Part shown: positions 18,987-61,843 of the stretch, piece by piece
Layout of the letters: every line of letters starts with the position of its first letter
Numbering within the stretch: the first letter of the stretch is position 1
Origin: Pelobacter seleniigenes DSM 18267
GTDB taxonomy: Bacteria > Desulfobacterota > Desulfuromonadia > Desulfuromonadales > Geopsychrobacteraceae
Assembly (NCBI RefSeq): GCF_000711225.1
Contig: NZ_JOMG01000002.1
Location: 1,190,501 to 1,254,500, forward strand
Direction of reading: 5' to 3'
Length of the DNA stretch: 64,000 bases
Made by a program: the position numbers and the translations under genes
Notes under the pieces: generated by a model
Databases searched by the model: none
What the model was told of the DNA's origin: nothing
Seen by the model: the letters and a program-made list of their open reading frames with translations, nothing else

Positions 18987-19207
18987 TTCTGTAACGGGAG
19001 ATCAGTGCTAATCAGGTAAAATAAACAAGCCAATGTCACAATGGTGGGGCCTGTATGGAGGGTTTTTGTGAGGTTTCGGTGAGGATTCTGTTTGTTTTCC
19101 GGCAACCGCCGCAGTTGGAACACTGCGAATCAAGGGCTTCCGTTTTCGCCTCAACATGATAAGATCGTCTCTTCGAGCGCCGGATCAATACTGTTGCAGG
19201 AGTGTTC

Positions 19208-20210: not shown

Positions 20211-20253
20211 TTGACATCGCTATTCTTGACGTTATACCTTTCGAAATATCGAA
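20211..20253 (+). promoter_or_regulatory. modA promoter with ModE-like operator
   Basis: TTGACA (20211-20216) and TATACC (20233-20238), 16 bases apart, give a plausible sigma-70 promoter. Over it lies CGTTATAC (20230-20237) followed after eight bases by AATATCG, an imperfect inverted repeat (5 of 7 pairs). The same order ATCGnTATTC then CGTTATAC occurs at the perfect palindrome at 41443, which supports a shared operator. An operator on the -10 fits repression by ModE. Confidence 0.55.
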
Positions 20254-37478: not shown

Positions 37479-39353
37479 TCAGAAGCGATAGTTGATTCCG
37501 GCATAAACCTGCAGGGGGTCCTGAATAAAATAGTCGTTCTCTTCCTGAAACAGATTGTCCGAACCGGCATAGACCTTCAGGCTGTCCGTCAGCTGTTTGC
37601 TGAGGTACAGGCTCACCAGGTCATAGCCATCCAGCTTGCCCCCGGAACCGTCCTCACAATTGCCGAAATAGAGATAGCGGAGCTGACTTTCGATGTCGAC
37701 CAATGGCACCTGCCAGGTCACAGCCACTTCCCCTTTCCATTCCGGCTCGCCGGCCAGGTCCTTGCCGGTGTCTTTATTTTCAGACTGCAGCCAGGTGCCC
37801 TGGACGGAAAGGTCAAGCCGGCGGCTCAGGGTCAGGCCGGTTTCCAGCTCCAGGCCATAGGTCGTCGCCTTGTTGACATTCTGGTATTCATAGGTCCGGC
37901 TGCTGCCGGAGGCACCGACCTGGACCAGGTCGATCAGGTCTTCGACACGGTTATGGAAGTAGACCAGCTGGCCGCGCACGCGCTGATTATGCAACTCCGC
38001 ACCGGCTTCAAAACTGTCCGAGGTTTCCGGATCGAGATCCTCATTGCCCAGGTAAAGGTCCTTGCCCTGGCGGCGGTACACCTGCCCGTACAGCTCATCA
38101 AGAGTCGCAGCCCGAAAGCCCTGGCCGTAACCGGCCCAGAGCTTACCCGAGGGGATAAATACGCTGGCAACAAGCCGCGGAGTCACCTGAGAGCCGGAGT
38201 TTGCATAGTCATCAAAGCGCAAGCTGCCGACCAGATTCAGCCAGGCGTTCGGGGACCAGTCAAACTGACCGTACATGGCTTTGATCTGGTCGGATTTGTG
38301 ATCGTCGTCATAACTGGAGAGCTGATCCCCTTCCAAGGTTTCCCAACGCAGTTCACCTCCGGCGGTCAGGGTCAGACCGTTCACCACCTGATAAGAACCC
38401 CGGGTTTCCAACTGCAGCAGTTCGCGTTGGTTTTCATCGGCATTACCCGAAGGAGCAGTCGGCGAAAACTGATACGAACCCTTGCTCTGGTTGCCGTAAA
38501 CCCTGACCATGGCGCGGTACGGGGTATCTGCAGCCAATTCGTACTGCAGGTAACCGCCAATCCGTTTTTCATCCCCGGCGCGCTTCCGTTCGGCATTCAT
38601 ATAATAGCGCTGCCCATCACGCTGGAATTCGCCCCATTCGCCACCCAGCGACAGGACCTGGCCCGAAGCCAGATCAACTGCCGCCCGGGTATAGACCGTA
38701 TCAAGCTGGGTGTCATCCACCTCCTGACCGGGCTCAGCGGCGTCATCCCAACCATCCTGCTTGCCATGGGCCGCCGCAATGGTGGCCCGCAACGGACCTG
38801 CGGCAGTACCCACCTGCCCCTGGAGTGACTGCTCCGCAGCCAAGCCAACCCCGCCGCGGGCATCAACAGCCGCTTCGGTCTGCCGCGGTGGCTGGCTGGT
38901 GATGATATTGATCACCCCGCCGGCCGCTTCGCTGCCGTACAGGGCCGATCCCGGACCGCGGACGATTTCGATATGGTCGATCAGCAGCACCGGAATTTGT
39001 TTAAGATCAACGATGGCGTTGTAGCCGCCGGTGATCCTGCGCCCATCCAGCAGGATCAGGGTATGCCCGCCGCCCATGCCCCGGATGGATGCTTCCCGGC
39101 TTCTCCCGGTACCGGTCATGACATTGATCCCGGCGGCATGCTGCAGCACATCGGCAACGTCTTCGGCCGCCAGTTGGACAATCTGTTCATGAGTGATCAC
39201 CTGGATTGTGCCGGTCGCGCTGTTAAGCGGCTGTTCGGTCATGGTTGCGGTCACCACCAGTGGCGCCAGCTGCTGAGGATCACTGGCATTTGCGGTTACC
39301 GGGGCGACCAACAGCAGCCCCCCGAGAAGAGTGGCAAAACATCGAATATTCAT
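37479..39353 (-). CDS. TonB-dependent outer-membrane receptor (first)
   Basis: A 624-residue BtuB-like receptor. The signal peptide (CFATLLGGLLLVAPVTANA) precedes a TonB box (APLVVTATM), the plug domain (TIQVITHEQI, GINVMTGTGRSREASIRGM, IEIVRGPGSALYGSEAAGGVINII) and a 22-strand barrel region ending in an aromatic strand (LQVYAGINYRF). It lies inside an operon with a type II ABC importer and its own TonB-ExbBD motor, all downstream of a ModE-type palindrome, so its ligand may be molybdate, tungstate or a chelate of them rather than B12; this is inferred from context only. Confidence 0.93.
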   Translation of the reverse strand: MNIRCFATLLGGLLLVAPVTANASDPQQLAPLVVTATMTEQPLNSATGTIQVITHEQIVQLAAEDVADVLQHAAGINVMTGTGRSREASIRGMGGGHTLILLDGRRITGGYNAIVDLKQIPVLLIDHIEIVRGPGSALYGSEAAGGVINIITSQPPRQTEAAVDARGGVGLAAEQSLQGQVGTAAGPLRATIAAAHGKQDGWDDAAEPGQEVDDTQLDTVYTRAAVDLASGQVLSLGGEWGEFQRDGQRYYMNAERKRAGDEKRIGGYLQYELAADTPYRAMVRVYGNQSKGSYQFSPTAPSGNADENQRELLQLETRGSYQVVNGLTLTAGGELRWETLEGDQLSSYDDDHKSDQIKAMYGQFDWSPNAWLNLVGSLRFDDYANSGSQVTPRLVASVFIPSGKLWAGYGQGFRAATLDELYGQVYRRQGKDLYLGNEDLDPETSDSFEAGAELHNQRVRGQLVYFHNRVEDLIDLVQVGASGSSRTYEYQNVNKATTYGLELETGLTLSRRLDLSVQGTWLQSENKDTGKDLAGEPEWKGEVAVTWQVPLVDIESQLRYLYFGNCEDGSGGKLDGYDLVSLYLSKQLTDSLKVYAGSDNLFQEENDYFIQDPLQVYAGINYRF

Positions 39354-39357
39354 AAAA

Positions 39358-40377
39358 TTAACCCCATCCCTTTCGTGTCCTGGCCAGGACAAAGGCAAAA
39401 AATGGTATGCCGATTAAAGACGTCAGAATGCCAATAGGAATCTCAACAGAAAACAACAGCCGGGCGATATCGTCGGCAATCACCAGGTAAGTGGCACCGA
39501 CCAGGGCCGCTGCGGGCAGCAGCAACCGGTTGTCCGGGCCAACCATCATGCGCGCGATGTGGGGAATCAACAGGCCGACCCAGCCGATGATCCCGCCCAG
39601 AATAACGGTCAGCGCACTGATAATGGTGGCCAGAAAAATGAAGATCAGGCGCAGCAGGGTCACATTGACCCCCAGGGAGCGTGCTTCTTCATCGCCCATA
39701 CTCATGACGTTGAGATACCCGGACAGGGCCAGCAGAAGCAAAATTCCCGCCACCATCGGCAGGCTGACCGTCAGCACGGTCCGGGCATCGGTTGCGGACA
39801 GTCCGCCCATCAGCCAATAGACGATCGCCGGCAATTGCTCGTAAGGATCGGCCAGATATTTGACCACAGAAAGCAAAGCCGTAAACATGGCGCCGCTGAT
39901 AATACCGCCCAATATCAGCATCAGCAGACGATCACCACGATTGATCAAGGCCAGGCTCAGGGCGATCGTTACGGCCAGCAAGCCGCAGGAGAAAGCGCCC
40001 AATTGCACGATCAGCCAGCTTTTGCCGGCAATCATGCCGACCGCCGCACCAAAGGAGGCTCCGGACAAAACCCCGAGGACCCCGGGAGAGACCAGCGGAT
40101 TGATAAACATCGACTGGAAAACCACCCCGGCCACGGATAATGAAGCGCCGATTAGAAGCGCAGCGACAATCCGCGGCAGGCGGATATCCATAAGAATATT
40201 CTCGAGCACCTGCATCCGGCTTATATCGATATCCGCACTCTGCTGGCCAAGCAGATGAGTGCTGAAGTACAGCTGCAGATCGGCCAGCGAAAGAGGATAA
40301 CGTCCCAGCAGCATCGACAGCAAAACGGTCGCCACCAGCACAACCAGCATCACGACCAGAACCGTCGGGGCCTTCAT
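39358..40377 (-). CDS. FecCD/BtuC/MolB-like ABC permease
   Basis: A 339-residue inner-membrane permease with about ten membrane segments. The family marker GRYPLSLADLQ near the start, IRLPRIVAALLIGASLSVAG, then VSPGVLGVLSGASFGAA, GGIIGWVGLLIPHIARMMVGPDNR and SVEIPIGILTSLIGIPFFAFVL are the standard FecCD motifs. Overlap with the binding-protein gene (ATGA at 40374-40377) shows co-translation. Haemophilus MolB, a molybdate permease, belongs to this family. Confidence 0.95.
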   Translation of the reverse strand: MKAPTVLVVMLVVLVATVLLSMLLGRYPLSLADLQLYFSTHLLGQQSADIDISRMQVLENILMDIRLPRIVAALLIGASLSVAGVVFQSMFINPLVSPGVLGVLSGASFGAAVGMIAGKSWLIVQLGAFSCGLLAVTIALSLALINRGDRLLMLILGGIISGAMFTALLSVVKYLADPYEQLPAIVYWLMGGLSATDARTVLTVSLPMVAGILLLLALSGYLNVMSMGDEEARSLGVNVTLLRLIFIFLATIISALTVILGGIIGWVGLLIPHIARMMVGPDNRLLLPAAALVGATYLVIADDIARLLFSVEIPIGILTSLIGIPFFAFVLARTRKGWG

Positions 40378-41399
40378 GGTTGCAGCAACTGTCTGGCCTG
40401 GCCCGCGGACAGCGTGACATCCAGAAATGCCTGATAAAAATTCTGGACTTCAACCACCAGGGCAGCGTTATCAGGCTGCTGAAAAAGCACACCCTGCAAC
40501 CATTTCAAGCCGAGCAGACGCATAAAAGAGGGGGGCCGATCAAACCAGTTGAAGGGTTGTTTGGGAATTTTGTAAATCCGCCCATCCTGGACCGCTTTAA
40601 TACTGCTCCAGCGTGGATCGGTCCTGACCGTCCGGTAAAATTCATCATCATGGGTGAGGATAATCTGCGGCGCATATTGCAGCACCTGCTCCAGCGACAC
40701 CGTCACCTGGCCGCGATTGCTTTTATCCGTGCAATGATGAACATTCACCGCACCGCTCAGGGGGATCAACTGCGCATGAATGGAACTGTCGCATTCCGTC
40801 TGCAGACCTTGCGGACCTTCCGCATAATAAACCCGCAGTCTGGTCCCGACCTGCCCGTTGCGAACCGCCGCCGCTTCGGCCAGCATCCGCTCCGTATAGC
40901 GGGCCAGCATCTCGCCCCGTTCTTCAAGCCCGAACAAGCGGCCCAAAAAACGATAAGCGGCCGGGTAATCGGATAATTTTTCGACAAAGACGTAAACCAC
41001 CGGTATATGCAACGGCCCCAGAGCCTTTTCGATTTTCTCATTGGTTGCCGAAGGACCCCAGGAACAGTTCAGGATAATATCGGGCTTGACCCGCAGCAGA
41101 ACCTCAAGATTGGAGACATTCCCCTGCCCAAACCAGCCGCCCAGGATCGGCTTGTCCAGATAACTTTTTTTCAGATAAGGCTTCTCATTGGCCGATGGCA
41201 GCGTGTTGAGCCCCGCGACCAGCTCAGGACTCAGCGAATAGGCCAGGTAGGTCGCTATCGGCGAAGTTCCGTAGATGCTTTTGATCTGCTCGGGCACCTC
41301 CAGCCGACGATTGAACATATCGACCAGCTGACGAGCTTCTGCCTGGCCGCAGCAACCCAGCAACACAACCAGAACCAAAAAAAAGTAACCCCGTCTCAT
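40374..41399 (-). CDS. Class III (BtuF/MolA-like) substrate-binding protein
   Basis: A 341-residue binding protein with signal peptide (YFFLVLVVLLGCCGQAEA; LLGCCG could be a lipobox). It has the two-lobe layout of FepB/BtuF proteins: LEVPEQIKSIYGTSPIATYLAY, LEVLLRVKPDIILNCSWGP, IPVVYVFVEKLSDY, then LEQVLQYAPQIILTHDDEFY and WSSIKAVQDGRIYKIP. MolA of Haemophilus is a molybdate/tungstate binder with this fold. It is the first gene after a perfect ModE-type inverted repeat at 41443, the main reason to suspect an oxyanion or metal-chelate ligand. Confidence 0.9.
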   Translation of the reverse strand: MRRGYFFLVLVVLLGCCGQAEARQLVDMFNRRLEVPEQIKSIYGTSPIATYLAYSLSPELVAGLNTLPSANEKPYLKKSYLDKPILGGWFGQGNVSNLEVLLRVKPDIILNCSWGPSATNEKIEKALGPLHIPVVYVFVEKLSDYPAAYRFLGRLFGLEERGEMLARYTERMLAEAAAVRNGQVGTRLRVYYAEGPQGLQTECDSSIHAQLIPLSGAVNVHHCTDKSNRGQVTVSLEQVLQYAPQIILTHDDEFYRTVRTDPRWSSIKAVQDGRIYKIPKQPFNWFDRPPSFMRLLGLKWLQGVLFQQPDNAALVVEVQNFYQAFLDVTLSAGQARQLLQP

Positions 41400-41442
41400 G
41401 GCCTCATCCCTCTCATGTGTTCATGGAAAACATCGATATTCA

Positions 41443-41471
41443 AATCGTTATACTTATTAGATATAACGATT
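41443..41471 (-). promoter_or_regulatory. ModE-type operator, perfect inverted repeat
   Basis: AATCGTTATA and TATAACGATT are exact reverse complements separated by nine bases. This resembles the CGTTATA/TATAACG half-sites of the E. coli ModE box. The site lies 44 bases ahead of the first gene of the minus-strand importer-TonB operon and about 340 bases before the divergent receptor gene. An extra half-site-like ATCGATATT lies at 41432-41440. modE itself is at 19208. Confidence 0.7.
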
Positions 41472-41812: not shown

Positions 41813-43837
41813 ATGAGCAAAGGGATTGTTTCAATTCTGGGTCTGTTCATGATGATGGTTGCGGGTTCGGTTTTGCCTGCTGCGGCCGCGGAATCGCCGA
41901 CCAATGGCGATGTGTTTACCCTGGGAGAAGTCATCGTCAGCGAAGAGAAGCAGGCTGTCGACCTGGCCACGACCGTGACCGAAATCACGGCCGAGGATAT
42001 CAAGGCCCGGAGCGCCCAGACCGTTGCCGATGCGCTGGAGATGTTACCCGGGGTTGACGTTGAAAAGGGGGGAAAAGGCCAATCGTACGTCAGGGTGCGT
42101 GGTTTTGATCAGGGCGATCTGAAAGTCCTGATCGACGGCATTCCGGTGTACGAACAGTACTTCCGCGATCTGGACCTGGCTCAGTTTCCGGTCGCGGCCA
42201 TCTCAAAAATCACCGTCACCAAAGGAGCTTCATCCGTTTTGTACGGAGCCAACACGATGGGCGGCGTCATCAACATCATCACCAAAAAAGCCGGCGCCAA
42301 ACCGACCTACGAAGTGGACACCGAGTGGGGTGATTACGGCACGCAAAGTTACACCCTCAACACCGGCGCCAAATCCGGAGATTTCAGCTACTGGTTGACC
42401 TATAACTTCAGCCAGTCAGATGCCTATAACCTTGCGGACGATTTCGATCCGGCCGACGGGTTCAACGGCACCCATACTGTCAACGGGACACATTTTCAGG
42501 AAGATGGCGGCAGCCGTGATGACAGCGGCTATATCAGAAGGATGATCAACGCCAAGCTGGGCTGGGAACCGACTGACGAGACCAGTGTCTTTCTGACCTT
42601 TGACTACCACAACAATGCCAAGGGGATACCGGTTCGGACCTGGACCTTCAGCGACTGGGAGCAATGGACCCTGGGACTGGTCGGCGAAACCCGCGCTACC
42701 GATTGGCTGAAACTCAAAGGCCGGGTCTATTACATGGATTTTGCAGACACCATCCACGAGACAGCCACCGCGGCTTCCGGCCTGCTCGGCAAAAAATATC
42801 ATCAGTTCTACGATTCGTCCTATGACAACTACACTGCCGGTTCCGAAGTTCAGGCCTTTATCAACGCGGGACAACACAACTATATCAAGTTGGGCCTGAA
42901 CTTCACCCTCGACCACCATGAACAAAAAGAGATCCCCATCGGCTCGAGCAGCTGGGAAGATACCGGCACCTTCGAGGCTCAGACCTATTCTATTTCGGCA
43001 GAGGACGAAATCAGCGTCAACAAATGGCTCTCCATTGTCGTTGGCGCCAGCTATGACTATTTCAAACCTGAAGTCAAGGACTCCCCGGACGAAGACGGCG
43101 AGATCGCAACCGACCATGCCGACAGCGTCAATCCGCAGATCGGTGCCGTCGTCACTTTAAGTGAAAAAACCACGCTGCATGCATCCATCGGCAAAAAAAC
43201 CCGTTTTCCGCATCTGAAGGAACTCTATACCTCAAGTATCGTCACCGGCAACCCCGGGCTTGATCCGCAGCAAACCATCGCTTATGAAATCGGCGCCGAC
43301 CAGCGCTTCACTGATCGCCTGAACGGATCGATCGCCTACTTCTATAATGATATCAGCGATCTGATCGACACCACTACTGACTCTGAGGGCAACAAATATT
43401 ATGTCAATATCAATGACGCGACCATTCAGGGGCTGGAGCTGGCCCTCGATTTTGCCGTGACCCGGAACTTTTCCAGCGGGGTCAATTACACCTATATGAA
43501 CACCAAGGATGACAGCACCGGCAAGGAGCTGTACAACCGCCCGCGCCATCGGGCCAACCTTGACCTGCGCTATCGTTTCCCGTTCGGCCTGAGTACCAGT
43601 GCCCAGGGCTCCTATGTCGCCCGGCAGTTCTATGAACACCAGACCACCTATGCGCGAACCCGGGCAACCAACTATTTCCTGCTCAGCGCGCGCCTCGAAC
43701 AGGAACTCGGCCGCATCTGGGGAGTTGAAGGCAGAATCTATGTGGCCGGGCAGAACCTGACCGATAAATACTATGTCGAAGACGGGGAATTAACCGCTGG
43801 TCGGACCGTCATCGCCGGCCTGAATTTCCGCTATTGA
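41813..43837 (+). CDS. TonB-dependent outer-membrane receptor (second)
   Basis: A 674-residue receptor. Signal peptide IVSILGLFMMMVAGSVLPAAAA, a TonB box-like EVIVSEE, plug motifs (ATTVTEITAEDI, VADALEMLPGVDVEKGGKG, ITVTKGASSVLYGANTMGGVINII) and a long barrel with typical Asp-rich loops, ending AGRTVIAGLNFRY. It resembles siderophore or metal-chelate receptors (CirA/FepA style), but the ligand is not evident. AAGGAGG lies ahead of the ATG. It diverges from the ModE-box operon, has a possible attenuator leader, and is followed by an AraC-type regulator. Confidence 0.93.
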   Translation: MSKGIVSILGLFMMMVAGSVLPAAAAESPTNGDVFTLGEVIVSEEKQAVDLATTVTEITAEDIKARSAQTVADALEMLPGVDVEKGGKGQSYVRVRGFDQGDLKVLIDGIPVYEQYFRDLDLAQFPVAAISKITVTKGASSVLYGANTMGGVINIITKKAGAKPTYEVDTEWGDYGTQSYTLNTGAKSGDFSYWLTYNFSQSDAYNLADDFDPADGFNGTHTVNGTHFQEDGGSRDDSGYIRRMINAKLGWEPTDETSVFLTFDYHNNAKGIPVRTWTFSDWEQWTLGLVGETRATDWLKLKGRVYYMDFADTIHETATAASGLLGKKYHQFYDSSYDNYTAGSEVQAFINAGQHNYIKLGLNFTLDHHEQKEIPIGSSSWEDTGTFEAQTYSISAEDEISVNKWLSIVVGASYDYFKPEVKDSPDEDGEIATDHADSVNPQIGAVVTLSEKTTLHASIGKKTRFPHLKELYTSSIVTGNPGLDPQQTIAYEIGADQRFTDRLNGSIAYFYNDISDLIDTTTDSEGNKYYVNINDATIQGLELALDFAVTRNFSSGVNYTYMNTKDDSTGKELYNRPRHRANLDLRYRFPFGLSTSAQGSYVARQFYEHQTTYARTRATNYFLLSARLEQELGRIWGVEGRIYVAGQNLTDKYYVEDGELTAGRTVIAGLNFRY

Positions 43838-46593: not shown

Positions 46594-47412
46594 CTAGCGC
46601 CATTCCCCTTTGTCCCAGTAAATGATTGCCCAGCGAATAACCCTGGGCTCTGGCAGCCGCAACTTGCCCTGGTAAGAAACCAGTTCGGTCATTAAATATT
46701 CCTGCAGCCGCGTTCTCTCATCCGCCGTCAATTCCCCAATCTTGGCCGCCGTGACCGCTATGGCTTCATCGAGATCGTCATAACTGTTCCAGACCGTATT
46801 GGTGATAAAAGAGACGTTAGCATAAATTCCCATTTCATGAAGAATATTATAGAGATAGATATAATCGGGGCCGTTGGCGAGCGGACGCCCGATAGCCTGG
46901 TAGACGCGCTTGTCATGGGGGCCATCGCCGACCATGGCGGTCACATAGACTTGTCGCCGGGCCGCTTGGTTCAGTTTACTGAGCGCCGCGGGAAGGTCAC
47001 TGACCGCCAGCGAACGCGAGGCAATGGCCACGTCGTGACGGCCGACCCCAAGGGAGTCCCAGTCATCCTCCCAGCGGCCGTGAATCGTGGTGATATTGTC
47101 CACCCCCTGTTCAACACAGCCCTGCTGCAACAGTTCGAGCATGGTTGGGGAGAAATCGAGGGCAGTGATCAAAGCGACTTGCTTTGCCAATGGCAAGGCC
47201 AGGTTCCCGCAACCGCAACCCACATCAAGAACACTCCAATGAGGTTGCAGTTGCATGAAGCGAATGAAATCTTCTGCGTATTCTGTCTTGGCCACCTGGT
47301 GTTTTCTGAATTCGGGTGCGCGTTTGTCCCAAAAGGAAGGGGTGTTTCGTACGGCATTTTTTCTTTGCGAGCGAGCCCACTGCTCGGCCCAATGCGTGAC
47401 GGCAGTATTCAT
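46594..47412 (-). CDS. Class I SAM-dependent methyltransferase (operon end)
   Basis: A 272-residue methyltransferase. SAM-binding motif I is LDVGCGCGNLALPLA (about residue 60), the acidic post-I residue is in ITALDFSPTMLELL, and ASRSLAVSDLPAALSKL corresponds to motif IV-V. The N-terminal ~45 residues are basic and the C-terminal 100 mixed (NVSFITNTVWNSYDDLDEAI). The substrate is not evident. GAAGGA lies nine bases ahead of the ATG. It is the last gene of the minus operon that begins with ModA/ModB-like proteins and 114 bases after the preceding methyltransferase. Confidence 0.85.
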   Translation of the reverse strand: MNTAVTHWAEQWARSQRKNAVRNTPSFWDKRAPEFRKHQVAKTEYAEDFIRFMQLQPHWSVLDVGCGCGNLALPLAKQVALITALDFSPTMLELLQQGCVEQGVDNITTIHGRWEDDWDSLGVGRHDVAIASRSLAVSDLPAALSKLNQAARRQVYVTAMVGDGPHDKRVYQAIGRPLANGPDYIYLYNILHEMGIYANVSFITNTVWNSYDDLDEAIAVTAAKIGELTADERTRLQEYLMTELVSYQGKLRLPEPRVIRWAIIYWDKGEWR

Positions 47413-47525
47413 ACGATGCGATCCTTCAGTTGATGATGTTCTAACTGACCTGCGTTGTTCGAGCCCTTTAGAAGAGAGAAACAACGCTTTTTCCCATGTT
47501 GCCGCTTCCCGGCAGGATGCTGAAT

Positions 47526-48197
47526 TTACCTTGATGCCTGTAAACCTTCCGCAGGTAAGCCGTTGTCACATTTCCTGATGATGATCCACAAACCGATCTC
47601 ATCATTACGCAAGACGGTGTAATTTCTGATTCCGGCACGGCTCAGGGCAGAGGCGAAACGGGCCTGCATTTCCGGTCCCAGGTTGCGTCGAATTTTCGCG
47701 GAAAACGACTCTTTTCCCTCGGTCGGTTTTGCTTCCATCCTGGCAATGATCTCGTCCATGACCTGCTGGGAGCCAAAGCCACCGCCGATATAGGCCCACC
47801 CGCCGGGAGCGAGAATACGTTCGATTTCCTGCAGGGATTTTTCCAGATGTTCCCAGAAAAAGATCGACCCCCGGCTGACGGCCAGGTCGACGGCTCCATC
47901 CGCCAGATCGATATTGGCGACATCTCCGCATTGCAGGCTGAAACGCCCGGCCAGCTGTTGTTCCGCCATTTTCTCCGCAGCCAGCTCAAGCATCTGTGGA
48001 TACTCATCGTAGAAGAGCATCTGCAGCCGGGTCTTCTGCAACAGGGCACAACCCAAGGCTCCGGTTCCGCAACCGAGGTCGATGCAGGTTCCGGTGGTTT
48101 TACCGGTCGCGGCAATGATCTGCTCGGCAAGCAGGGGATATAACGGAGCAAAAACCTCTTTTTCGATTTTGCTGAACTTATTGCCGTCAATTTTCAT
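47526..48197 (-). CDS. Class I SAM-dependent methyltransferase, SRGS type (1)
   Basis: A 223-residue methyltransferase with CIDLGCGTGALGCALL (motif I, ~38), MLFYDEYPQMLELA and the block SRGSIFFWEHLEKSLQEIER followed by PGGWAYIGGGFG. The same block occurs in the product of 50382-51020 (SRGSVPFWDKLE... PGGRAYIGGGMG), so the two are paralogues within one operon. The C-terminal FGSQ/NLGP segment is a likely substrate cap. Substrate unknown; context suggests work on a small metal ligand or cofactor. Confidence 0.88.
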   Translation of the reverse strand: MKIDGNKFSKIEKEVFAPLYPLLAEQIIAATGKTTGTCIDLGCGTGALGCALLQKTRLQMLFYDEYPQMLELAAEKMAEQQLAGRFSLQCGDVANIDLADGAVDLAVSRGSIFFWEHLEKSLQEIERILAPGGWAYIGGGFGSQQVMDEIIARMEAKPTEGKESFSAKIRRNLGPEMQARFASALSRAGIRNYTVLRNDEIGLWIIIRKCDNGLPAEGLQASR

Positions 48198-48225
48198 GCT
48201 GCTCAGATCCTTTCACTCCCGGCAA

Positions 48226-49392
48226 TTATTGGATCTTCCCAGACCGGTGAACAACGCCCAAGGTGCCCTGATTGTAATGATTGCGTGAAAAACATTCGAT
48301 GCACAGATCGGCACCCGCGACCATGTGCATGGCCATACTTTTATTGCCAACGGCGATACTGCGGCCGGGATAGTCGTCACCGATGGTCCCGCCGGGCAGA
48401 GCTTTGAAATATCCGGACAGCGGGTAGCGATTGGTTTTCAGTTCGCGCAGATGAAACAGATACCCCGGCGGATATTCATGCAACCGATGGCGACCCGAGG
48501 TGATGGCCAGCAACTGCGCATCGCTGGGTTCGTAACTGAACCAATCCAGGGTATTGGCGCAGGGAGTGTACGGCCAGGGGAAATCGTCTTCGCCAACCCC
48601 TTCCAGAATAATCAGCGCCATAGGCCGCCCCTGCTGCAAACCGTCATCTATAACCTGTCGCAACCCGGTGAGCTCAGTGACCGGTTGCGGGCTGTAGCAG
48701 GGCAGTTCAGGAGCTGCCAGCGGCACCATGGCCGGTTTGCGCATGGTGCATCCCAGCCCCTTGAAGGCATAGCCGGGTTCCGCCACGAGCAGATAATCGG
48801 AAAGCAATTCCGGCTCGGGACAGGGTTCGGCAAACAGCTGCTGGTACGCCGTCCTGGCAACCACCCGCTGAATATGTGGATGCCGTCGCAGCCAGGCCAG
48901 ATCATGCTCACTCGGCTCGTGAACTCCGCCATAGCGGGCCGACCAATGGGGTGAGACCCCGATCCCGTCCAGCCTGCTGATATCAATAAAACCCTGCGTC
49001 GGCATCACCCCACCCCGGCCGATGATCACTGCCGTCATCCCCGTTTGCTCAAGAAAGCTCTCAACTTCACGACGCAACTCGGCCATGATCCGCTTTTTTT
49101 CTGCACCGCTCAGACTGGCAATCCGGGTTGCAAAATACTGCTCGGCATAGGTCAGCAAGACAAATCCGGGATGATACCCCCGGACCAGCGCAAGGGCGGT
49201 CTCGGTCACCCAGCGATTGCTGCCGCCATCCAGGTCCCCCGGATAGGGATGGTCGGCCAGAATCCTGCGCAACAGCCTGAGCGCTGCATTATCCGCGGTC
49301 GATTTGGCCCCAGTCCGCAGCTCAAACTGATTCTGCCACTGCCGGGCGTCAATAATGGCGACGCTGTCACTGCTTTCAGACGTTGCTGCCAT
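48226..49392 (-). CDS. Conserved protein of unknown function (388 residues)
   Basis: A 388-residue soluble protein I do not recognise. Notable parts are ALVRGYHPGFVLLTYAEQYF, a segment TAVIIGRGGVMPTQGFIDISR, ALIILEGVGEDDFPWPYTP with acidic residues, and the C-terminus SMAMHMVAGADLCIECFSRNHYNQG. It has several His, Asp and Cys residues that could bind metal but no named motif. AGGAG six bases ahead sets the ATG at 49392, which overlaps the end of the radical SAM gene by 17 bases, so the two are probably co-translated. It lies between a radical SAM enzyme and a methyltransferase, which suggests a biosynthetic step. Confidence 0.7.
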   Translation of the reverse strand: MAATSESSDSVAIIDARQWQNQFELRTGAKSTADNAALRLLRRILADHPYPGDLDGGSNRWVTETALALVRGYHPGFVLLTYAEQYFATRIASLSGAEKKRIMAELRREVESFLEQTGMTAVIIGRGGVMPTQGFIDISRLDGIGVSPHWSARYGGVHEPSEHDLAWLRRHPHIQRVVARTAYQQLFAEPCPEPELLSDYLLVAEPGYAFKGLGCTMRKPAMVPLAAPELPCYSPQPVTELTGLRQVIDDGLQQGRPMALIILEGVGEDDFPWPYTPCANTLDWFSYEPSDAQLLAITSGRHRLHEYPPGYLFHLRELKTNRYPLSGYFKALPGGTIGDDYPGRSIAVGNKSMAMHMVAGADLCIECFSRNHYNQGTLGVVHRSGKIQ

Positions 49393-50368
49393 GATCTCTC
49401 CTATAAAGCCTGATCGGCCGCCGGCATTGCGGACAGCGACCATCTGCAAGTTTCGCCTGTTGCAGTTGGTCGCCGCCACAACCGAGGCTGAAGCGCTCAA
49501 TGACCGGGATACCGCAATCCGGGCAGAGGGTGTTGACCCACTCTGAGCCGACAAAATTGTGAAAATACAGATAGGGCAGAACCCGGCGCGCCTTCTCCAA
49601 CTCGCCATTGATCTTGTCAATATTGGGGTAGGCGGCCCCCTTCATCCCGTCTTCGGGCAGCAGACGCAAGACATGCCAGGGAATCTCCGGGTCAACCCCG
49701 GCGATAAACGCAACGATCTCGTCCAGTTCATGATCGTTTAATCCCTGGATGACCGGGGTGGTGATCTCGACATGGCGATGAGCCGCCAGGGCTTTAATGT
49801 TGCGCAGAATCGGTTTCACAGAGGGGATACCGATATAACGGCGATGAAATTCATCATTGAGCCCCTTCAGACTGATATTGAAAAAAGAGAACACCCTCGC
49901 CAGCAGTTCGGTCGCTTCGGGCGTGCTGTAACCGTTGGTCAAACAGCCCAGTGCGATCCCGGCAGCATGGGCCTCGGCGGCCAGCCGCTGCAGACTCGGT
50001 AAAGACACGGTTGGTTCGTTGACATCAAAAACGATGCTGGTGCATTTCAGCTTGCGGGCTAGCGTCACCAGCCGCTGTGCGCTAAGCTGATACATTTTGT
50101 CCTGCTGGCAAGCCGGGTCCTGCTTGGCGACAAAGGCATTCGAGCAGTAGTTGCAGCGGAAATTACAGCTGCTGGTGCCGATCACCAGGCACTGGCTGCC
50201 CGGCTGGACATGGTAGAACAGGGTCGACTCAATCCTGACCGTTTCATAAGTGCTCCAACGATCCGGAAAACGCTCCTGAACGACCCCATCCTCGGCATAA
50301 TACATCCGGCAGCGACCATAGTGCTCCACACCAAGCTCGCAGCGCCATTCGCAATAAGAACATCGCAT
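49376..50368 (-). CDS. Radical SAM protein, PFL-activase/AmmeMemoRadiSam-like
   Basis: A 330-residue radical SAM enzyme. An N-terminal cysteine set (MRCSYCEWRCELGVEHYGRC spans residues 1-20) precedes the cluster motif CNFRCNYC (~69-76), then FDVNEPTVSLPSLQRL and ISLKGLNDEFHRRYIG. The C-terminal end is zinc-ribbon-like (LCPDCGIPVIE and RCPQCRRPI). This layout fits COG1180-type activases and the AmmeMemoRadiSam group. No glycyl-radical partner is nearby, so it likely acts on a small molecule. Starts at GTG 50443 and ATG 50368 are possible; the ATG is taken because it begins at the first Cys motif. Confidence 0.85.
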   Translation of the reverse strand: MRCSYCEWRCELGVEHYGRCRMYYAEDGVVQERFPDRWSTYETVRIESTLFYHVQPGSQCLVIGTSSCNFRCNYCSNAFVAKQDPACQQDKMYQLSAQRLVTLARKLKCTSIVFDVNEPTVSLPSLQRLAAEAHAAGIALGCLTNGYSTPEATELLARVFSFFNISLKGLNDEFHRRYIGIPSVKPILRNIKALAAHRHVEITTPVIQGLNDHELDEIVAFIAGVDPEIPWHVLRLLPEDGMKGAAYPNIDKINGELEKARRVLPYLYFHNFVGSEWVNTLCPDCGIPVIERFSLGCGGDQLQQAKLADGRCPQCRRPIRLYRRDHGSNV

Positions 50369-50381
50369 TTCGTTTATCCGA

Positions 50382-51020
50382 TCATCTGTTATGGCCGGCA
50401 CTGCCCACAGCCTTGCCGAACTCAATCCAGGTTCCGTCGTCACTGTGACTGACGCTAAAACCTCGAATTCCCGCAGTGCCTAAAGCCTGTTCATAAACCC
50501 CGCGTTCACGCCGTGGGATGGCCGGCTTGCGATACCCCCGCCGAGGTTCAAAGTGGCGAGCCTTTTGCTGCAAGCTGTCCCAGAGCCCGGGTGGTCCCAT
50601 GCCGCCGCCAATATAGGCCCGCCCGCCCGGTTTCAAAACCCGATGCAGTTCCGCAAAAGCGGTTTCCAGCTTGTCCCAGAACGGGACCGACCCGCGACTG
50701 ACAATCAGCTCCACAGAGCTGTCCGCCAGAGGAATATTCTGGACCGGAGCCTGAACGATCTGAGCACGATCCCTCAGCGCGAAGCGGGCAATGTTCTTTT
50801 CTGCACAGCCGAGCATGTCAGCCGACTGGTCGAGAAAAATAAAGCTGAGCTCGCTTATCGGGGCCAGAGCCAGTCCCAGATACCCGCCGCCGCAGCCGAC
50901 ATCTAGGCACACTCCCCGGTAAATGCCGGTTTTTTCCAGAATCCTGACCGCGTAATAGGCATAAACCGGGGCATTCACGTTGATGGCTTCATCATCATAG
51001 GTCTGCGCATCCATGAGCAT
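50382..51020 (-). CDS. Class I SAM-dependent methyltransferase, SRGS type (2)
   Basis: A 212-residue methyltransferase with LDVGCGGGYLGLAL (motif I, ~40), FIFLDQSADMLGCAE and VSRGSVPFWDKLETAFAEL plus PGGRAYIGGGMGPPG, close to the block in 47526-48197. The C-terminal SVSHSDDGTWIEFGK matches the final strand of the fold. It lies just before the radical SAM gene (13 bases from its ATG) and after FmdE in transcription order. Substrate unknown. Confidence 0.88.
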   Translation of the reverse strand: MLMDAQTYDDEAINVNAPVYAYYAVRILEKTGIYRGVCLDVGCGGGYLGLALAPISELSFIFLDQSADMLGCAEKNIARFALRDRAQIVQAPVQNIPLADSSVELIVSRGSVPFWDKLETAFAELHRVLKPGGRAYIGGGMGPPGLWDSLQQKARHFEPRRGYRKPAIPRRERGVYEQALGTAGIRGFSVSHSDDGTWIEFGKAVGSAGHNR

Positions 51021-51046
51021 TGAAATACCCCCGTCAACCGGCCGTG

Positions 51047-51631
51047 CTAGCAGGTTTCCAGATCAAGAAGCTGATAATAATCACGCTGTTCGAAACAGCC
51101 GCGGCACAGGGTTTCCCCATCCTGCTCAATATCCCGGCCATCCATCACTCCTTCTCCGCAGCGGGCGCAGGGCACTCGGCGCAAGGGTTTGCCCGGCAGA
51201 TCTTCGGGCCGTAGCGCGACCGTGACCTCATGAATAGAAAACAGCTCCTGGTCAGCGACACTGCTAAAATCAGGCAGCGGCTCGGCGTCGGAACGCTTGG
51301 CCATATCGGTCGCGACCCGGACGGAGCGCCCGGACTCCAGGTTGATAAAGGTCGCAGCCATCTTGCCGTAATCACGAATCTTCATCGTCCGCTTACCCGG
51401 GCGGCAGCCGGTCAGAGCCATAATGGCATCCGTTGCACAACGATCGATCTCGACATAGACCATAAGCTTTTTGCGGTCCGCTCCGGTGGGATCGCTGATG
51501 CCGATCCGGCTCAGACCGCACATGGTCATCCGGGTACCGATTTCGATCCCGGCACAGATATCACCATGAAAGGCCCCGGCAATTTTGAGCAAGGCCTGAT
51601 AATCGTTACAGTGCTCCTTGTACTGTTCCAT
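51047..51631 (-). CDS. FmdE-family protein with C-terminal zinc ribbon
   Basis: A 194-residue protein. Residues ~10-150 are the FmdE domain (GDICAGIEIGTRM, RCATDAIMALTGCRPGKRTMKIRDYGKMAATFI), first noted with tungsten/molybdenum formylmethanofuran dehydrogenases but present in many bacteria without them. The C-terminus is a zinc ribbon (CARCGEGVMDG and LCRGCF). FmdE domains often sit with Mo/W enzyme or molybdate transport genes, which fits this operon. The ATG at 51631 is preferred because AAAGGA is eight bases ahead; the one at 51640 abuts it. Confidence 0.88.
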   Translation of the reverse strand: MEQYKEHCNDYQALLKIAGAFHGDICAGIEIGTRMTMCGLSRIGISDPTGADRKKLMVYVEIDRCATDAIMALTGCRPGKRTMKIRDYGKMAATFINLESGRSVRVATDMAKRSDAEPLPDFSSVADQELFSIHEVTVALRPEDLPGKPLRRVPCARCGEGVMDGRDIEQDGETLCRGCFEQRDYYQLLDLETC

Positions 51632-51667
51632 CGCGCACATCCTTTAACAGTCAGTTAGTTGTCATCT

Positions 51668-51720
51668 GGAAACTAATTCGTTGGCCTCCGGAGTTTCCGG
51701 ATGCCAACGAATTAATTTCC
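51668..51720. repeat. Long hairpin overlapping a stop codon inside the operon
   Basis: An 18-bp stem (17 of 18 paired; GGAAACTAATTCGTTGGC left arm) encloses an inner TCCGG stem. It spans the stop codon of the DUF364 gene and could stabilise or partly terminate the upstream transporter mRNA, setting different levels for the downstream enzymes. The outer part 51651-51673 matches the element at 30572. Confidence 0.6.
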
Positions 51721-52644
51721 ACGAACCGGCTGCAGACCCAGCTGAGCCAATCTGGACGGGTTGAAAACATTCAGTTTTTTCATACAGCTGCCAAGCAAGT
51801 GATAGCCGCCGCCCCCTTCGCCAAGGACGTCCAAGGCCCGCTGTGGAGCCGTCACCACCGCAGTACCCACGGCAGCAACATTGCGGGCGAACAAGGCATC
51901 CGGAATAAACCCGGCACTCGGCCCAACCACCACCACCGCAACGCTTGGCGGGGTCAGCGCAAGTAATTCGGCAATCGAACCATTCGCCACGGCAGCCCCG
52001 GTAAAGACCGCTGTTTCGCACTTGGCCAGTTGCTCCGGCAGCTGCGCCGAAGAATAAAAGGTTCCCCAACCGGCCTCGGCCTCCTGCTGCGTCGCTGCTT
52101 TCTTATCGATAATGGCAACCGCGCCGGGATTAAGTTGCTTGATATGCTTGAGCAGCGGAATAATGGCGCCGACCAGGCAGATCTTGCGCCCGGTGAACAG
52201 GGCCTCAAATGCCGACAAGTCGGCATCGGGACTCACCTGGTAGCAACCGCCGGTCAATAACGGAACCGACAGGGCATTCAATGTGGCCAGCCGGATAACC
52301 TCGGCAAACGGCGATATCATCTGATTCAGCAGGATATCGGCGACCGCAGCGCCCTGATAGCGCGTCATGGGTTCTTTGAGGATGTGCTGGCTGGCCCGGT
52401 CGATCAGCTCCGGCGGGGTATAAGCGATTCCTCCGCAGCCGTTGGACAGTTTGATGCCGGTAAAAAAAACCCCGACCGTTAACTTTGCGACAGTCCACCC
52501 GGCCAGTTGGGGTTGCAGCTGCTGCAACAGGGTCACAGTTTCAGCGATGATGCCCGGTGTCGCGCAATCCGCTAACGTCTCGCTGGTGGTCTTGGTCGCC
52601 GGCAAACCCCCTTTGCGGCATGGATGATATTGAGGCTCGCCCAT
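51712..52644 (-). CDS. DUF364 (putative heavy-metal chelation) protein
   Basis: A 310-residue protein. The N-terminal half carries a DUF4213-like start (VGVFFTGIKLSNGCGGIAYTP), the C-terminal half a Rossmann-like DUF364 domain (ICLVGAIIPLLKHIKQL, AVFTGAAVANGSIAELLAL, VVVVGPSAGFIPDALFARNV). Pfam describes the family as putative heavy-metal chelation; no enzyme activity is established. It occupies the place where a ModC ATPase would be expected after the ModA- and ModB-like genes, seven bases downstream of the permease. A second DUF364 protein is at 59110-59856. Confidence 0.82.
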   Translation of the reverse strand: MGEPQYHPCRKGGLPATKTTSETLADCATPGIIAETVTLLQQLQPQLAGWTVAKLTVGVFFTGIKLSNGCGGIAYTPPELIDRASQHILKEPMTRYQGAAVADILLNQMISPFAEVIRLATLNALSVPLLTGGCYQVSPDADLSAFEALFTGRKICLVGAIIPLLKHIKQLNPGAVAIIDKKAATQQEAEAGWGTFYSSAQLPEQLAKCETAVFTGAAVANGSIAELLALTPPSVAVVVVGPSAGFIPDALFARNVAAVGTAVVTAPQRALDVLGEGGGGYHLLGSCMKKLNVFNPSRLAQLGLQPVRGN

Positions 52645-52650
52645 AACCGC

Positions 52651-53355
52651 TTATCCCGGCGTATCGCTGGAAAGCTTTCTGATACTGGCAAATAGCAGCA
52701 GGGAAAAGCCAAACAGCAGTAGACAGAGGGCGGTCGCCCGCTCAAAATCGCCATCGTAGACAGCGTTAAACACTTCCAGGGAGAGGGTGTTGGTCTTGCC
52801 GATGATATTGCCCCCCAGCATCAGGGTGATGCCAACTTCCCCCAGGGAGCGCCCCAGGCCAAGGGCCAGCCCTGAAAAGATGCTTTTTTTGATACCGGGG
52901 AGGGTGACATGGCAGAAGGTCAGCAAACGGCCGCGCCCCAGAGTATAAGAGGCCTCAACCAGATCATTGCCAAAGGTTTTGATGGCAGCCTGAACCGGTT
53001 TGACCACCAGGGGTAACCCGGCGATGAAAGCCGCAATGACGATGCCCGGGAAGGAGAAGACGATTTCTATCCCCAGCTGATCATTCAAAAAACCGCCCAG
53101 GGGGCTCATCCGCCCCAGCACCACCAGCAGCAGATAACCGGTGGCAATGGGCGGGAAGATCAGCGGAAAGGTGACCAGGCTCTCGGTGATCGCGCGGCCG
53201 GGCGTTTGTGCCCCGGCCAAATAGCAGGCCAGGGGAATACCGGCCAGCAGCTGCAGGGCCAGGGCATAGAGGCAAATTTTTGCGGTCAGTCCCAGCGAGA
53301 ACAAAACCGGCTCGGAACTGTAAACCTGCCACCAATTGGTGACGAACTCGCTCAT
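52651..53355 (-). CDS. ModB/TupB-like ABC permease
   Basis: A 234-residue inner-membrane permease with five to six membrane segments (ICLYALALQLLAGIPLACYLA, FPLIFPPIATGYLLLVVLG). The coupling loop is EASYTLGRGRLLTFCHVTLPGIKK and SLGEVGITLMLGGNI matches ModB-type permeases. It overlaps the binding-protein gene by four bases. No ATPase follows in the operon, so it would have to borrow one, for example ModC at 21739. Confidence 0.92.
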   Translation of the reverse strand: MSEFVTNWWQVYSSEPVLFSLGLTAKICLYALALQLLAGIPLACYLAGAQTPGRAITESLVTFPLIFPPIATGYLLLVVLGRMSPLGGFLNDQLGIEIVFSFPGIVIAAFIAGLPLVVKPVQAAIKTFGNDLVEASYTLGRGRLLTFCHVTLPGIKKSIFSGLALGLGRSLGEVGITLMLGGNIIGKTNTLSLEVFNAVYDGDFERATALCLLLFGFSLLLFASIRKLSSDTPG

Positions 53356-54068
53356 AGCCCTGCGGCCAACTTGTTCGCCTGCATGGCCTCGCTCTGCAGC
53401 AGGTGGGTGAATACCCCGACTTCTGTTTTTTCCTCGCAGCCGGTGATGATCCCGGCCACGATCTCGATCGGCTCGAACCCGCTGGTCAATTCCAGCATTG
53501 AGCCGAACTTGTCCCGGTTAGCCAGGGCGAAACTCATATTGACGAAGGCCGCATCGACCTCACCGCTGATCGCATAGGCCCCGCTGCGTGGCACCGTACC
53601 GACGGTCATCACTTTGGAGAGAACCTGCTGATACTGAGGCTGGCTGAGGATCTGCCGGGCCGCCCGCCCATAAATGGCTTTACTGCCATCCGGGGTCGCG
53701 ATCCTGGCGAACTCGGCCTTTTTCAGATCATCCAGGCCGGTCAGCGTCAACCCCTTTCGGGTGACCAGCACCGGGCGCCCCTGGCCAATGGCGAGGAAAG
53801 AACCGATGGGCAGACCGTGACTGGCAAGATACGCTTTGTCGCCGACCACGACACAGATCCCGCCCCCCTGTTTGATCTGGGCGGTCACCTGCCCCATGTT
53901 GCCATAGATGCGCTCAATCTTTTGTCCGGATTGGTCCTGGTAGAGGGTTGCCCAACCCTCGACGAATTTTTTATAGCCGGCCCCGGCTGCGGTCCTCAGA
54001 ACCTCGGCCTGAAGAGTTGAGCAAAACAACAACAAGAAGCAGATTAATGCCGGGATGATTCTTTTCAT
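53352..54068 (-). CDS. ModA-like periplasmic binding protein
   Basis: A 238-residue periplasmic receptor with Sec signal (IIPALICFLLLFCSTLQA). The mature N-terminus LRTAAGAGYKKFVEGWATLY and IYGNMGQVTAQIKQGGGICVVVGDKAYL resemble ModA, though the Ser ligands of ModA (AAAS, SSG) are replaced by AAGAG and GNMGQ, so the bound species may differ from bare molybdate. Further motifs are FARIATPDGSKAIYGRAARQIL and GEVDAAFVNMSFAL. It is first in the operon and preceded by a ModE-like site at 54084. Confidence 0.85.
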   Translation of the reverse strand: MKRIIPALICFLLLFCSTLQAEVLRTAAGAGYKKFVEGWATLYQDQSGQKIERIYGNMGQVTAQIKQGGGICVVVGDKAYLASHGLPIGSFLAIGQGRPVLVTRKGLTLTGLDDLKKAEFARIATPDGSKAIYGRAARQILSQPQYQQVLSKVMTVGTVPRSGAYAISGEVDAAFVNMSFALANRDKFGSMLELTSGFEPIEIVAGIITGCEEKTEVGVFTHLLQSEAMQANKLAAGL

Positions 54069-54083: not shown

Positions 54084-54124
54084 TCTCGATATTATTTTAT
54101 TGAATAACGTTTGGTATAACGAAT
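54084..54124 (-). promoter_or_regulatory. ModE-like operator upstream of the ModAB-like operon
   Basis: TCTCGATATT and AATAACGTTT lie nine bases apart as imperfect inverted repeats (CGnTATT paired with AATAACG), the same spacing as the perfect site at 41443. A further half-site TATAACGAAT follows at 54115. It starts 16 bases ahead of the first gene. Confidence 0.5.
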
Positions 54125-54277: not shown

Positions 54278-55207
54278 TTAAGACAGGCAAATCAAGCCCA
54301 GTAACAACGCGCTGCTGGGCTTGATAAGGGTCGCAAAATCGTGCCTTGGTGAGCACATCGATAAGGGCTGATCCTCCGGCTCAATAAGGGCGGAGATATC
54401 GGCCGGCTTGCCAAAATACATCCACGAGGTCACCAGCATATCCACGCCGGTGGCGGCATAGGCCGCCGCATTATCGGCATTGATCCCGCCGGCCGCACCG
54501 ATCACCAGCGCCGGGAAGCGATCCCGCAGGGCGCTGACCACCTGCTGCGCGGTTGCCGGTGAACATTTGTCCAACTGGATGATATCCGCGCCATGGGCCG
54601 CCATCAGTTCGGCCTGTTCCAGGCATTCAACCTCGACCCCGATCTTCTTTTCGCGGGCCGCCCGCTTAATGGCCGGTAGCCGACCGAGAAACTGCTCCAG
54701 GCCGATCAGGTTGTAATGATGGGGGAAAATCAGCACCGTCTCCCCCAACCCCAGGCGATGCGGAACCCCGCCCCCGGCCAGCAGCGCCTGTTGCGACAAT
54801 CTGCGCCCGCCGGGAAAAGCTTTCCGGGTCCCGCAGACCAACACATCCCCGTGCTGGCGGGCCTGGCCAACCAACTGCGCGGTCCGGGTGGCGATCCCCG
54901 AGGCATATTCAAGAATATTCAGGGCCACCCGCCAGCCGGAATGGATCATGCCGCCGTTCCCCCGCGCCCGCAGGATCGGGTCACCTGGCTGCAGCAGGCT
55001 CCCTTCGCTGCTCAGGCTCTCGATCTCGGCACCGAGTTTGGCAAAGACCGCCGCCGCTTCGGCAACACCGCTCAGTACGGTCTGGTTGCGCGCGGTAAAA
55101 CTGATCCGCGCGGCAGCCCGATCCACCTCCAGCAGATGGGAGGTCAGATCAAGCCCGGGCACGTCCTCTTCAATCCAGCGTTCAATGGTCGAATCCGGGA
55201 TAAACAT
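54278..55207 (-). CDS. modD: ModD, molybdenum-associated pyrophosphorylase-like protein
   Basis: A 309-residue protein of the nicotinate-nucleotide pyrophosphorylase (QAPRTase) fold. It matches ModD: IERWIEEDVPGLDLTSHLL, GGGVPHRLGLGETVLIFPHHYN, IGVEVECLEQAELMAAHGADIIQLDK and IGAAGGINADNAAAYAATGVDMLVTS. ModD is linked to molybdate operons, but its reaction is not established. ATG 55207 is favoured by AGGAG six bases ahead. It is probably cotranscribed with the aminotransferase upstream and ends at a clear terminator. Confidence 0.9.
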   Translation of the reverse strand: MFIPDSTIERWIEEDVPGLDLTSHLLEVDRAAARISFTARNQTVLSGVAEAAAVFAKLGAEIESLSSEGSLLQPGDPILRARGNGGMIHSGWRVALNILEYASGIATRTAQLVGQARQHGDVLVCGTRKAFPGGRRLSQQALLAGGGVPHRLGLGETVLIFPHHYNLIGLEQFLGRLPAIKRAAREKKIGVEVECLEQAELMAAHGADIIQLDKCSPATAQQVVSALRDRFPALVIGAAGGINADNAAAYAATGVDMLVTSWMYFGKPADISALIEPEDQPLSMCSPRHDFATLIKPSSALLLGLICLS

Positions 55208-55239
55208 CAACTACTCCTGTCAGGATAGCGGCACTATCA

Positions 55240-59856: not shown

Positions 59857-59898
59857 GCTTCAACAGCCTGGCAGGACCGGATCATGACCCGGATATGG

Positions 59899-61830: not shown

Positions 61831-61843
61831 AATTAGTGCTCCT

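Follow-up and report, generated by a model that had tools for sequence, protein, structure and literature searches.

A radical SAM protein and a partner of no assigned family in a predicted molybdenum- and tungsten-regulated operon of Pelobacter seleniigenes

We analyzed a nine-gene operon of Pelobacter seleniigenes DSM 18267, located on the minus strand at 46594–54068 of a 64,000-nucleotide stretch of contig NZ_JOMG01000002.1 (hereafter the window). The operon encodes, in order, ModA-like and ModB-like importer proteins, a DUF4213/DUF364 protein, an FmdE-family protein, a methyltransferase (MT1), a radical S-adenosylmethionine (SAM) protein, a protein with no assigned family (P7) and two further methyltransferases (MT2 and MT3). 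By sequence comparison, the conserved unit is the radical SAM protein together with P7, mostly accompanied by a FecCD-type importer and sometimes by MT3, FmdE or DUF364. The operon carries a predicted ModE-type operator, as a molybdenum/tungsten (Mo/W)-regulated gene set would, and a role in the acquisition or assimilation of these metals is well supported and very likely. We lean toward the view that the operon belongs to a system that acquires Mo/W in response to these metals and whose radical SAM–P7 pair would act on an imported complex or on its ligand.

Conservation of the radical SAM–P7 pair

P7 was chosen as the search probe because no family could be assigned to it. A scan of genome contigs gave 33 P7 loci. 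Two of them, L045 and L049, match P7 in part and entered only the map of open reading frames (ORFs) and the clustering of unassigned ORFs. Neighbors were counted in 29 other loci, one per genome, with the second P7 copies L041 and L042 excluded. The count used hidden Markov model (HMM) matches on all ORFs, with bit thresholds of our own, since a greedy choice of ORFs missed P7 in L012 and L024 and made chimeric frames (for example in L047). The FecE, ModC, MT1/MT2, radical SAM and MT3 profiles were built in a single HMM round, and the ModB profile was seeded by the canonical ModB. The controls were 20 regions from five P7 genomes, hand-picked ahead of inspection.

A radical SAM gene was found near P7 in 27 of the 29 loci, from several phyla, and in none of the 20 control regions; the two loci without it (L021 and L022) are on contigs starting just before P7. 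In 23 loci the two genes are on the same strand and at most 200 bases apart, the other four being fused or missed by ORF choice, and radical SAM and P7 form one open frame in L014, L015 and L016. The remaining neighbors, each with no occurrence in the controls, are importer genes (BtuF-like in 22 loci, FecCD in 19, FecE in 18), receptor-side genes (TonB receptor 7, ExbB 3), other operon-type genes (DUF364 7, MT3 6, FmdE 5) and Mo-linked genes (ModE-like 4, ModD 2). The operons of L032, L035 and L038 consist of the importer, radical SAM and P7 only. Conservation of the neighborhood had been named as a test in an earlier reading of the DNA made from the sequence alone (the sequence-only reading). 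The full set of nine genes does not recur together, its exact order being seen in this genome only among the P7 loci examined; what is conserved is the radical SAM–P7 core.

The radical SAM protein carries a CX3CX2C motif. In an alignment of 25 sequences, from which P7-fused forms (score below 200 bits) were left out, its cysteines (C68, C72 and C75) are each present in 95% or more; four N-terminal and four C-terminal cysteines are also kept. Among NCBIfam models the protein scores best with TIGR04337, but its 117.3 bits fall far short of the 220 required, and it has no sequence relative in the PDB at E 0.001. This model is the point of resemblance to the AmmeMemoRadiSam system, in which a radical SAM protein is partnered by Memo and AMMECR1. 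However, the score is below the cut-off, the partner here is P7, and neither Memo nor AMMECR1 was matched by any of the nine operon proteins at E 0.001.

P7 relatives were found in seven genomes of a 395-genome phylum sample, which was also used for the ModA, FmdE and DUF364 searches; one of the seven (G028) is a short, weak match, and the plasmids searched yielded none. P7 is absent from the 16 further listed genomes that share the family, order or class of this organism. No Pfam or NCBIfam family and no PDB sequence matches P7 at E 0.001, and its weaker matches are scattered and unrelated (best Pfam E 0.022, in three of 31 members; best PDB sequence E 0.18). Invariant residues in an alignment of 31 members (A2, with L042 left out) include W19, P51-G52-D53, D164, N280, H356, D362, E366 and C367. 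An AlphaFold model of P7 has a pLDDT (mean per-residue confidence) of 88.3 and a pTM (predicted template-modeling score) of 0.90, and a Foldseek search of the PDB with it gave nothing at E 0.001, the best match being ENPP6 (0.011). VIA-align, which re-ranks the Foldseek list, placed phosphonoacetate hydrolase first (Z 10.4, root-mean-square deviation 3.6, 220 residues within P7 residues 8–253). From this model, a distant, remodelled alkaline-phosphatase-like fold is possible. The likeness to that superfamily, which includes phosphonoacetate hydrolase and ENPP, is a partial structural match over residues 8–253, but P7 has no sequence match to it and shows, by eye, a GxG where a DH metal motif might sit. 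A circularly permuted phosphatase fold was considered as well; the C-terminal third of P7, modelled alone, has a pLDDT of 43.8, too low for a usable model.

Several loci show further arrangements around P7. In L046 (9926–12088) a methyltransferase domain of the TrmO_N type lies in one open frame with P7, and TrmO_N is fused to an FmdE match in L027 (8790–9605) and L028 (13867–14697). Two tandem P7 copies follow a radical SAM gene in L047 (7700–11182). An NTPase_1-family protein (PF03266, 37.9 bits) follows P7 in L030 (11150–11623), and a frame of equal length occupies the same place in L037 (about 8490).

Evidence for control by molybdenum or tungsten

A ModE-like site had been proposed to precede the operon, and such a site is present: the direct repeat CGTTATACCAAACGTTATTC at 54102–54121 follows a pattern common to the modABC promoter and to the intergenic region between the BtuF-fold and TonB receptor genes (Table 1). 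The motif was found by promoter comparison and is hence post hoc; a genome-wide search served as the test. CGNTATWC-N4-CGNTATWC has four exact matches in 5.09 Mb, which are located before modABC, in the BtuF/TonB intergenic region, before the operon and at C1:533986. The window has three copies of the palindromic form (CGNTATWC-N6..12-ATAWCG), one each at the modABC, BtuF/TonB and operon promoters. When up to one mismatch is allowed, the direct repeat gives 13 sites genome-wide versus 8 for a reversed control pattern, so that information comes from exact matches alone. A search of the window with the E. coli ModE consensus gave no site above chance (best 13 of 20 positions, three sites versus 2.3 expected). 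Among 31 P7 loci the direct repeat was found once, with one mismatch (L046). The shorter palindrome CGNTAT-N11/12-ATANCG gave five sites in 511 kb of P7 loci (two in L018 and one each in L024, L042 and L047), compared with one in 400 kb of control sequence. We took the L018 and L024 sites as likely because they are placed before TonB, ModE and ModE-like genes, and did not count those of L042 and L047.

The fourth exact site, at C1:533986, has a one-mismatch copy 355 bases away, and both are upstream of a gene cluster (positions 128–9507 of L063, C1:524500–543500). This cluster encodes a large exoprotein of the two-partner-secretion, filamentous-haemagglutinin-like kind, a ModA-like protein, a ShlB-like transporter, ExbB- and TonB-like proteins (most named by eye) and, in addition, a paralog of the operon ModA with 71% identity to it, and may be a secreted-protein route to Mo.

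A second type of control is seen in relatives. RF01055, the molybdenum/tungsten cofactor (Moco/Tuco) riboswitch family, was scanned for at the locus level in 27 P7 loci (all except L036, L041, L042 and L044) and at the genome level in the 29 P7 genomes. In L032, L033, L035, L038 and L047, all Gram-positive, it precedes the leading gene of the radical SAM–P7 operon by 13–365 bases, and in L047 it is in tandem. Genome-wide, 17 of the 29 P7 genomes contain 1 to 16 copies each; the genomes of L036, L041, L042 and L044 have none. All nine copies in the scanned loci lack the P3 hairpin, three of them (two in L019 and one in L028) being distant from the P7 operon. Regulski et al. assign the P3-less class to the tungsten cofactor (PMC2408646). 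As judged by length, other RF01055 copies in these genomes are mostly P3-less as well, and the type therefore reflects the organisms as much as P7. RF01055 is also found 0.3–1.6 kb upstream of same-strand DUF364 or FmdE genes in G410 (C264, C13), G402 (C110) and G412 (C103), which are given as examples and not as a count.

The surroundings of P7 point to the same metals. L033 carries the tungstate-binding protein WtpA (TIGR03730, 286.8 over 242.75), and L018 carries ModE, ModD, Mod genes and the Mo nitrogenase NifHDK over cut-offs. With the riboswitches and the ModE/ModD neighbors, these findings bear out the tie to Mo/W made in the sequence-only reading. The AFOR family, many members of which are tungsten enzymes, was found in all 29 other P7 genomes, compared with 234 of 297 phylum-sample genomes. 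FmdE is present in 26 of the 29 P7 genomes versus 296 of 395 in the phylum sample, and DUF364 in 25 versus 174, although both comparisons are loose since the 29 genomes span several phyla; among the seven P7 genomes within the phylum sample, DUF364 is found in seven and FmdE in six. The DUF364 structure paper (PMC2954201) had earlier linked this family to genes for the transport of Mo, W, V and Fe. A second DUF364 protein is encoded on the plus strand elsewhere in the window, in a region (59110–64000) that also contains a ferredoxin-DUF169 protein, a DUF2064 protein and a molybdopterin oxidoreductase.

The genes upstream of the receptor at 41813–43837 encode the likely partner importer (Table 1). 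Relatives 47% identical to this receptor adjoin the fused radical SAM–P7 genes in L015 and L016. The binding protein of L032 matches MolA (HI_1472) at 120.7 bits, compared with at most 51.8 for B12-binding BtuF, and that of the window matches MolA at 51.9 bits, with no B12 protein at E 0.001. For both, MolA is the third best solved relative, the higher-scoring chains being deposited as iron-complex or periplasmic binding proteins. The set resembles MolBC-A, the Haemophilus type II importer, in its BtuF-fold binding protein, FecCD-type permease and FecE-type ATPase, but differs in that TonB receptors also occur here. The described MolBC-A system includes, to our knowledge, no radical SAM protein, P7, methyltransferase, FmdE or DUF364. 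MolA itself binds molybdate and tungstate (PMC4031551).

Proposed role and its alternatives

When Mo (or W) is short, the cell would make the receptors, the importers and the cytosolic enzymes of the operon. A metal complex would be imported, and the radical SAM–P7 pair, aided by the methyltransferases, FmdE and DUF364, would alter the complex or its organic ligand, whereby the metal would reach cofactor synthesis. ChuW, an anaerobic radical SAM enzyme that opens imported haem, offers a parallel in logic only, in that genes for a radical SAM protein and for TonB/FecCD-type uptake of a metal chelate go together; it differs in that control here is by Mo/W and not iron. Cytosolic action on the complex or ligand is our first choice because of the linkage to import, the two independent Mo/W controls and a match in L020, where a radical SAM protein (10778–12619) has a C-terminal region matched by our BtuF profile at 85 bits. 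The gene for this fusion lies near MT3, radical SAM, P7 and DUF364 genes. Ligand synthesis is a close second because of the three methyltransferases and the MATE transporters that lie beside P7 in two loci, and modification of the cofactor is third. Within a Mo/W role, we hold the processing of an imported complex as a tentative assignment, the synthesis of a ligand for export as a doubtful one and the modification of a pterin cofactor as an unlikely one.

Several observations weigh against this explanation as a whole. Seven of the 29 P7 loci have no BtuF-like gene and 10 no FecCD gene, although some of these are short contigs. Of the other gene types of this operon, ModA of its clade was found near P7 in none of the 29 other loci, ModB in one and an MT1/MT2-type gene in one. 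RF01055 was found neither in 12 of the 29 P7 genomes nor in the window. Pfam recognizes Radical_SAM alone in the L020 fusion, its binding-protein part being seen with our BtuF profile only. Three methyltransferases suit synthesis more than dismantling, and the MATE transporters that follow P7, recognized by eye in L027 and by Pfam in L033, would fit a ligand exporter. Finally, no AFOR-family match was found in this 5.1-Mb genome; Mo is therefore likelier than W in this organism, and the system may serve either metal.

The foremost alternative is that the enzymes build a Mo/W metallophore which is exported and re-imported via TonB/FecCD. Besides the methyltransferases and the MATE transporters just mentioned, the radical SAM protein of the operon, the TonB receptors (7 of 29 P7 loci) and the ExbB-type proteins (3 of 29) fit such a cycle, and the window encodes a LysE transporter and, by eye, an EamA-like transporter elsewhere. 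However, inspection by eye recognized no exporter in the clusters of unassigned ORFs common to at least three P7 loci, and the operons of L032, L035 and L038 hold nothing beyond importer, radical SAM and P7. Export of a metallophore is an explanation that we doubt.

Alternatively, the enzymes could modify the pterin part of the Mo/W cofactor, or deliver the metal to the cofactor, within the cell. Three observations are consistent with this: the controlling riboswitches belong to a class whose signal is the cofactor, RF01055 copies lie upstream of DUF364/FmdE genes in G410, G402 and G412, and a flavin or pterin derivative is proposed for DUF364 in its structure paper (PMC2954201). The commonest neighbor of the radical SAM–P7 pair is an importer, however, and the ModE-type operator here points to molybdate as the signal. 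We consider such a role rather improbable.

Salvage of a corrinoid or haem is suggested by the B12- or haem-like parts of the importer, since the NCBIfam models that score best with its permease, its ATPase and its receptor carry B12, corrinoid and haem names, none of them reaching the cut-off. In place of the regulation expected from this we see Mo/W riboswitches and ModE-type operators, and no B12 protein is among the six PDB matches of the window binding protein. Corrinoid salvage was set aside because neither the window nor any of the 27 scanned P7 loci has a cobalamin riboswitch scoring over the gathering threshold, and we give the whole explanation very little credence. That unrelated genes came together here by chance, as the unique order of the operon and the 16 related genomes without P7 might suggest, is refuted for the radical SAM–P7 core by the 27 of 29 loci against none of 20 controls, is further countered by the shared operator, and is scarcely believable.

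More broadly, we tentatively propose, with rather less than even confidence, a metallo-ligand pathway for Mo/W in anaerobes of several phyla. Here, TonB/MolA-type import would take up an organic complex (a metallophore or a scavenged pterin cofactor), radical SAM–P7 would make or dismantle the ligand, and the methyltransferases, FmdE and DUF364 would be pathway enzymes. The importer types, FmdE, DUF364, ModE sites and Moco/Tuco riboswitches are already known; for the radical SAM–P7 pair and its place in Mo/W metabolism, no description was found in searches of the open-access PMC literature, which mostly excludes subscription journals. W/Mo uptake by anaerobes is mostly described as import of oxyanions by Mod, Wtp, Tup or Mol transporters. 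The occurrence of a radical SAM protein and a new protein family under Mo/W sensors in several phyla would imply chemistry between import and cofactor. If the proposed pathway is true, we know of no earlier case of radical SAM chemistry in the acquisition of Mo/W. FmdE and DUF364, both old orphan families, gain a testable home and, if the metallo-ligand pathway is true, a function. Relatives with adjacent riboswitches, WtpA or nitrogenase make testing direct.

Parts of the operon and neighboring genes

All nine minus-strand genes described in the sequence-only reading are present, with family matches that agree, and the two methyltransferases proposed there as paralogs, MT1 and MT2, prove to be 39% identical; their SRGS motif was recognized by eye. 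The intergenic gaps, in operon order, are -4, 6, 71, 26, 13, -17, 28 and 113 bases. From these sizes a single transcript is plausible through MT2, and MT3 may be partly separate. Judged from the sequence, ATG 50368 is the probable start of the radical SAM gene and ATG 47412 that of MT3. Between the DUF364 and FmdE genes, at 51675–51713, an inverted repeat (AATTCGTTGGC ... GCCAACGAATT) forms a strong predicted hairpin with no T run seen; no further copy of its 11-base arm was found in the window, nor in nine genome stretches outside it.

Table 1. Features of the operon, its putative partner importer and the Mo-linked genes and sites of the window
Feature	Position	Strand	Remarks
ModA-like binding protein	53352..54068	-	SBP_bac_11; TIGR01256 39.5 bits, cut-off 62.5; divergent clade
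ModB-like permease	52651..53355	-	TIGR02141 174.9 bits, just under cut-off 182.6
DUF4213+DUF364 protein	51712..52644	-	DUF364 (PF04016) 107.5 bits, over curated cut-off 23
FmdE-family protein	51047..51640	-	PF02663 101.6 bits, over curated cut-off 22.9; C-terminal DksA/TraR zinc finger
MT1, class I methyltransferase	50382..51020	-	family search
Radical SAM protein	49376..50368	-	75.7 bits; CX3CX2C
P7, 388 aa, no assigned family	48226..49392	-	near-constant radical SAM neighbor
MT2, class I methyltransferase	47526..48197	-	family search
MT3, class I methyltransferase	46594..47412	-	family search; relatives in 6 of 29 P7 loci
ModD, directly upstream of operon	54278..55210	-	TIGR01334 226.6 bits, over cut-off 178.85
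Predicted ModE-type operator before operon	54087..54121	-	direct repeat 54102-54121, palindrome 54087-54109
Predicted ModE-type operator between importer and TonB receptor	41434..41468	+	shared motif
Predicted ModE-type operator of modABC	20218..20251	+	shared motif
Full-length ModE	19202..19969	+	TIGR00637 100.8 bits over 98.5; Mop 117.2 over 55
Canonical modABC	20292..22788	+	holds the genome's only ModC over cut-off
FecE/BtuD-type ATPase of likely partner importer	36590..37438	-	below every NCBIfam cut-off shown
TonB-dependent receptor	37479..39398	-	named by eye and by matches shared with receptor at 41813
FecCD/BtuC-type permease	39358..40377	-	below NCBIfam cut-offs
BtuF-fold binding protein	40374..41399	-	six PDB matches including MolA HI_1472, no B12 protein
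TonB-dependent receptor	41813..43837	+	below NCBIfam cut-offs

Much weight had been put on the lack of an ATPase in the operon. Pfam and NCBIfam searches confirm that no ATPase or ModC is among the nine proteins, but the lack loses weight on comparison with relatives. The operon ModA, which shares 22% identity with the canonical ModA in this window, has relatives in 15 of the 395 phylum-sample genomes (E 1e-12); 11 of their neighborhoods were retrieved and all were mapped except L096 (3.4 kb). In L091, L092, L094 and L095 the order is ModC-ModA-ModB-ModD in one direction (ModA of L092 being placed by the ModA search and not by the ORF map), and in L086–L089 ModAB has no ModC directly adjacent. 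ModAB of L093 adjoins a relative of the second DUF364 protein of the window and a convergent ModC-like gene, and ModA of L090, also placed by the ModA search, adjoins a ModC-like frame, ModB not being resolved in the map. A modAB2 entry for a Desulfovibrio is found in Table 6 of PMC545781. The only ModC over cut-off in the genome, at 21745–22779 in the canonical modABC, is probably borrowed by the operon ModAB. Because related ModAB occur with and without an adjacent ModC, and one shareable ModC is available, we regard the absent ATPase as a local arrangement and not as a new type of transporter. The operon resembles a ModABC importer in its leading ModA-like and ModB-like proteins (the latter with an EAA-type coupling loop, EASYTLGRG, recognized by eye), the adjacent ModD and the ModE-type operator, but differs in having no ATPase, in the divergent clade of its ModA and in the scores of ModA and ModB, both below family cut-offs.

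Two other regions of the window contain genes of related kinds. At 8313–14923 are an importer of the SsuABC kind and a 1009-aa protein that, by eye, resembles a radical SAM protein fused to an ArsM-like methyltransferase. At 23181–26313 are a 477-aa protein with no NCBIfam match, a HypB-like GTPase and an ATP-binding cassette (ABC) ATPase, relatives of which occur together in the P7 locus L018.

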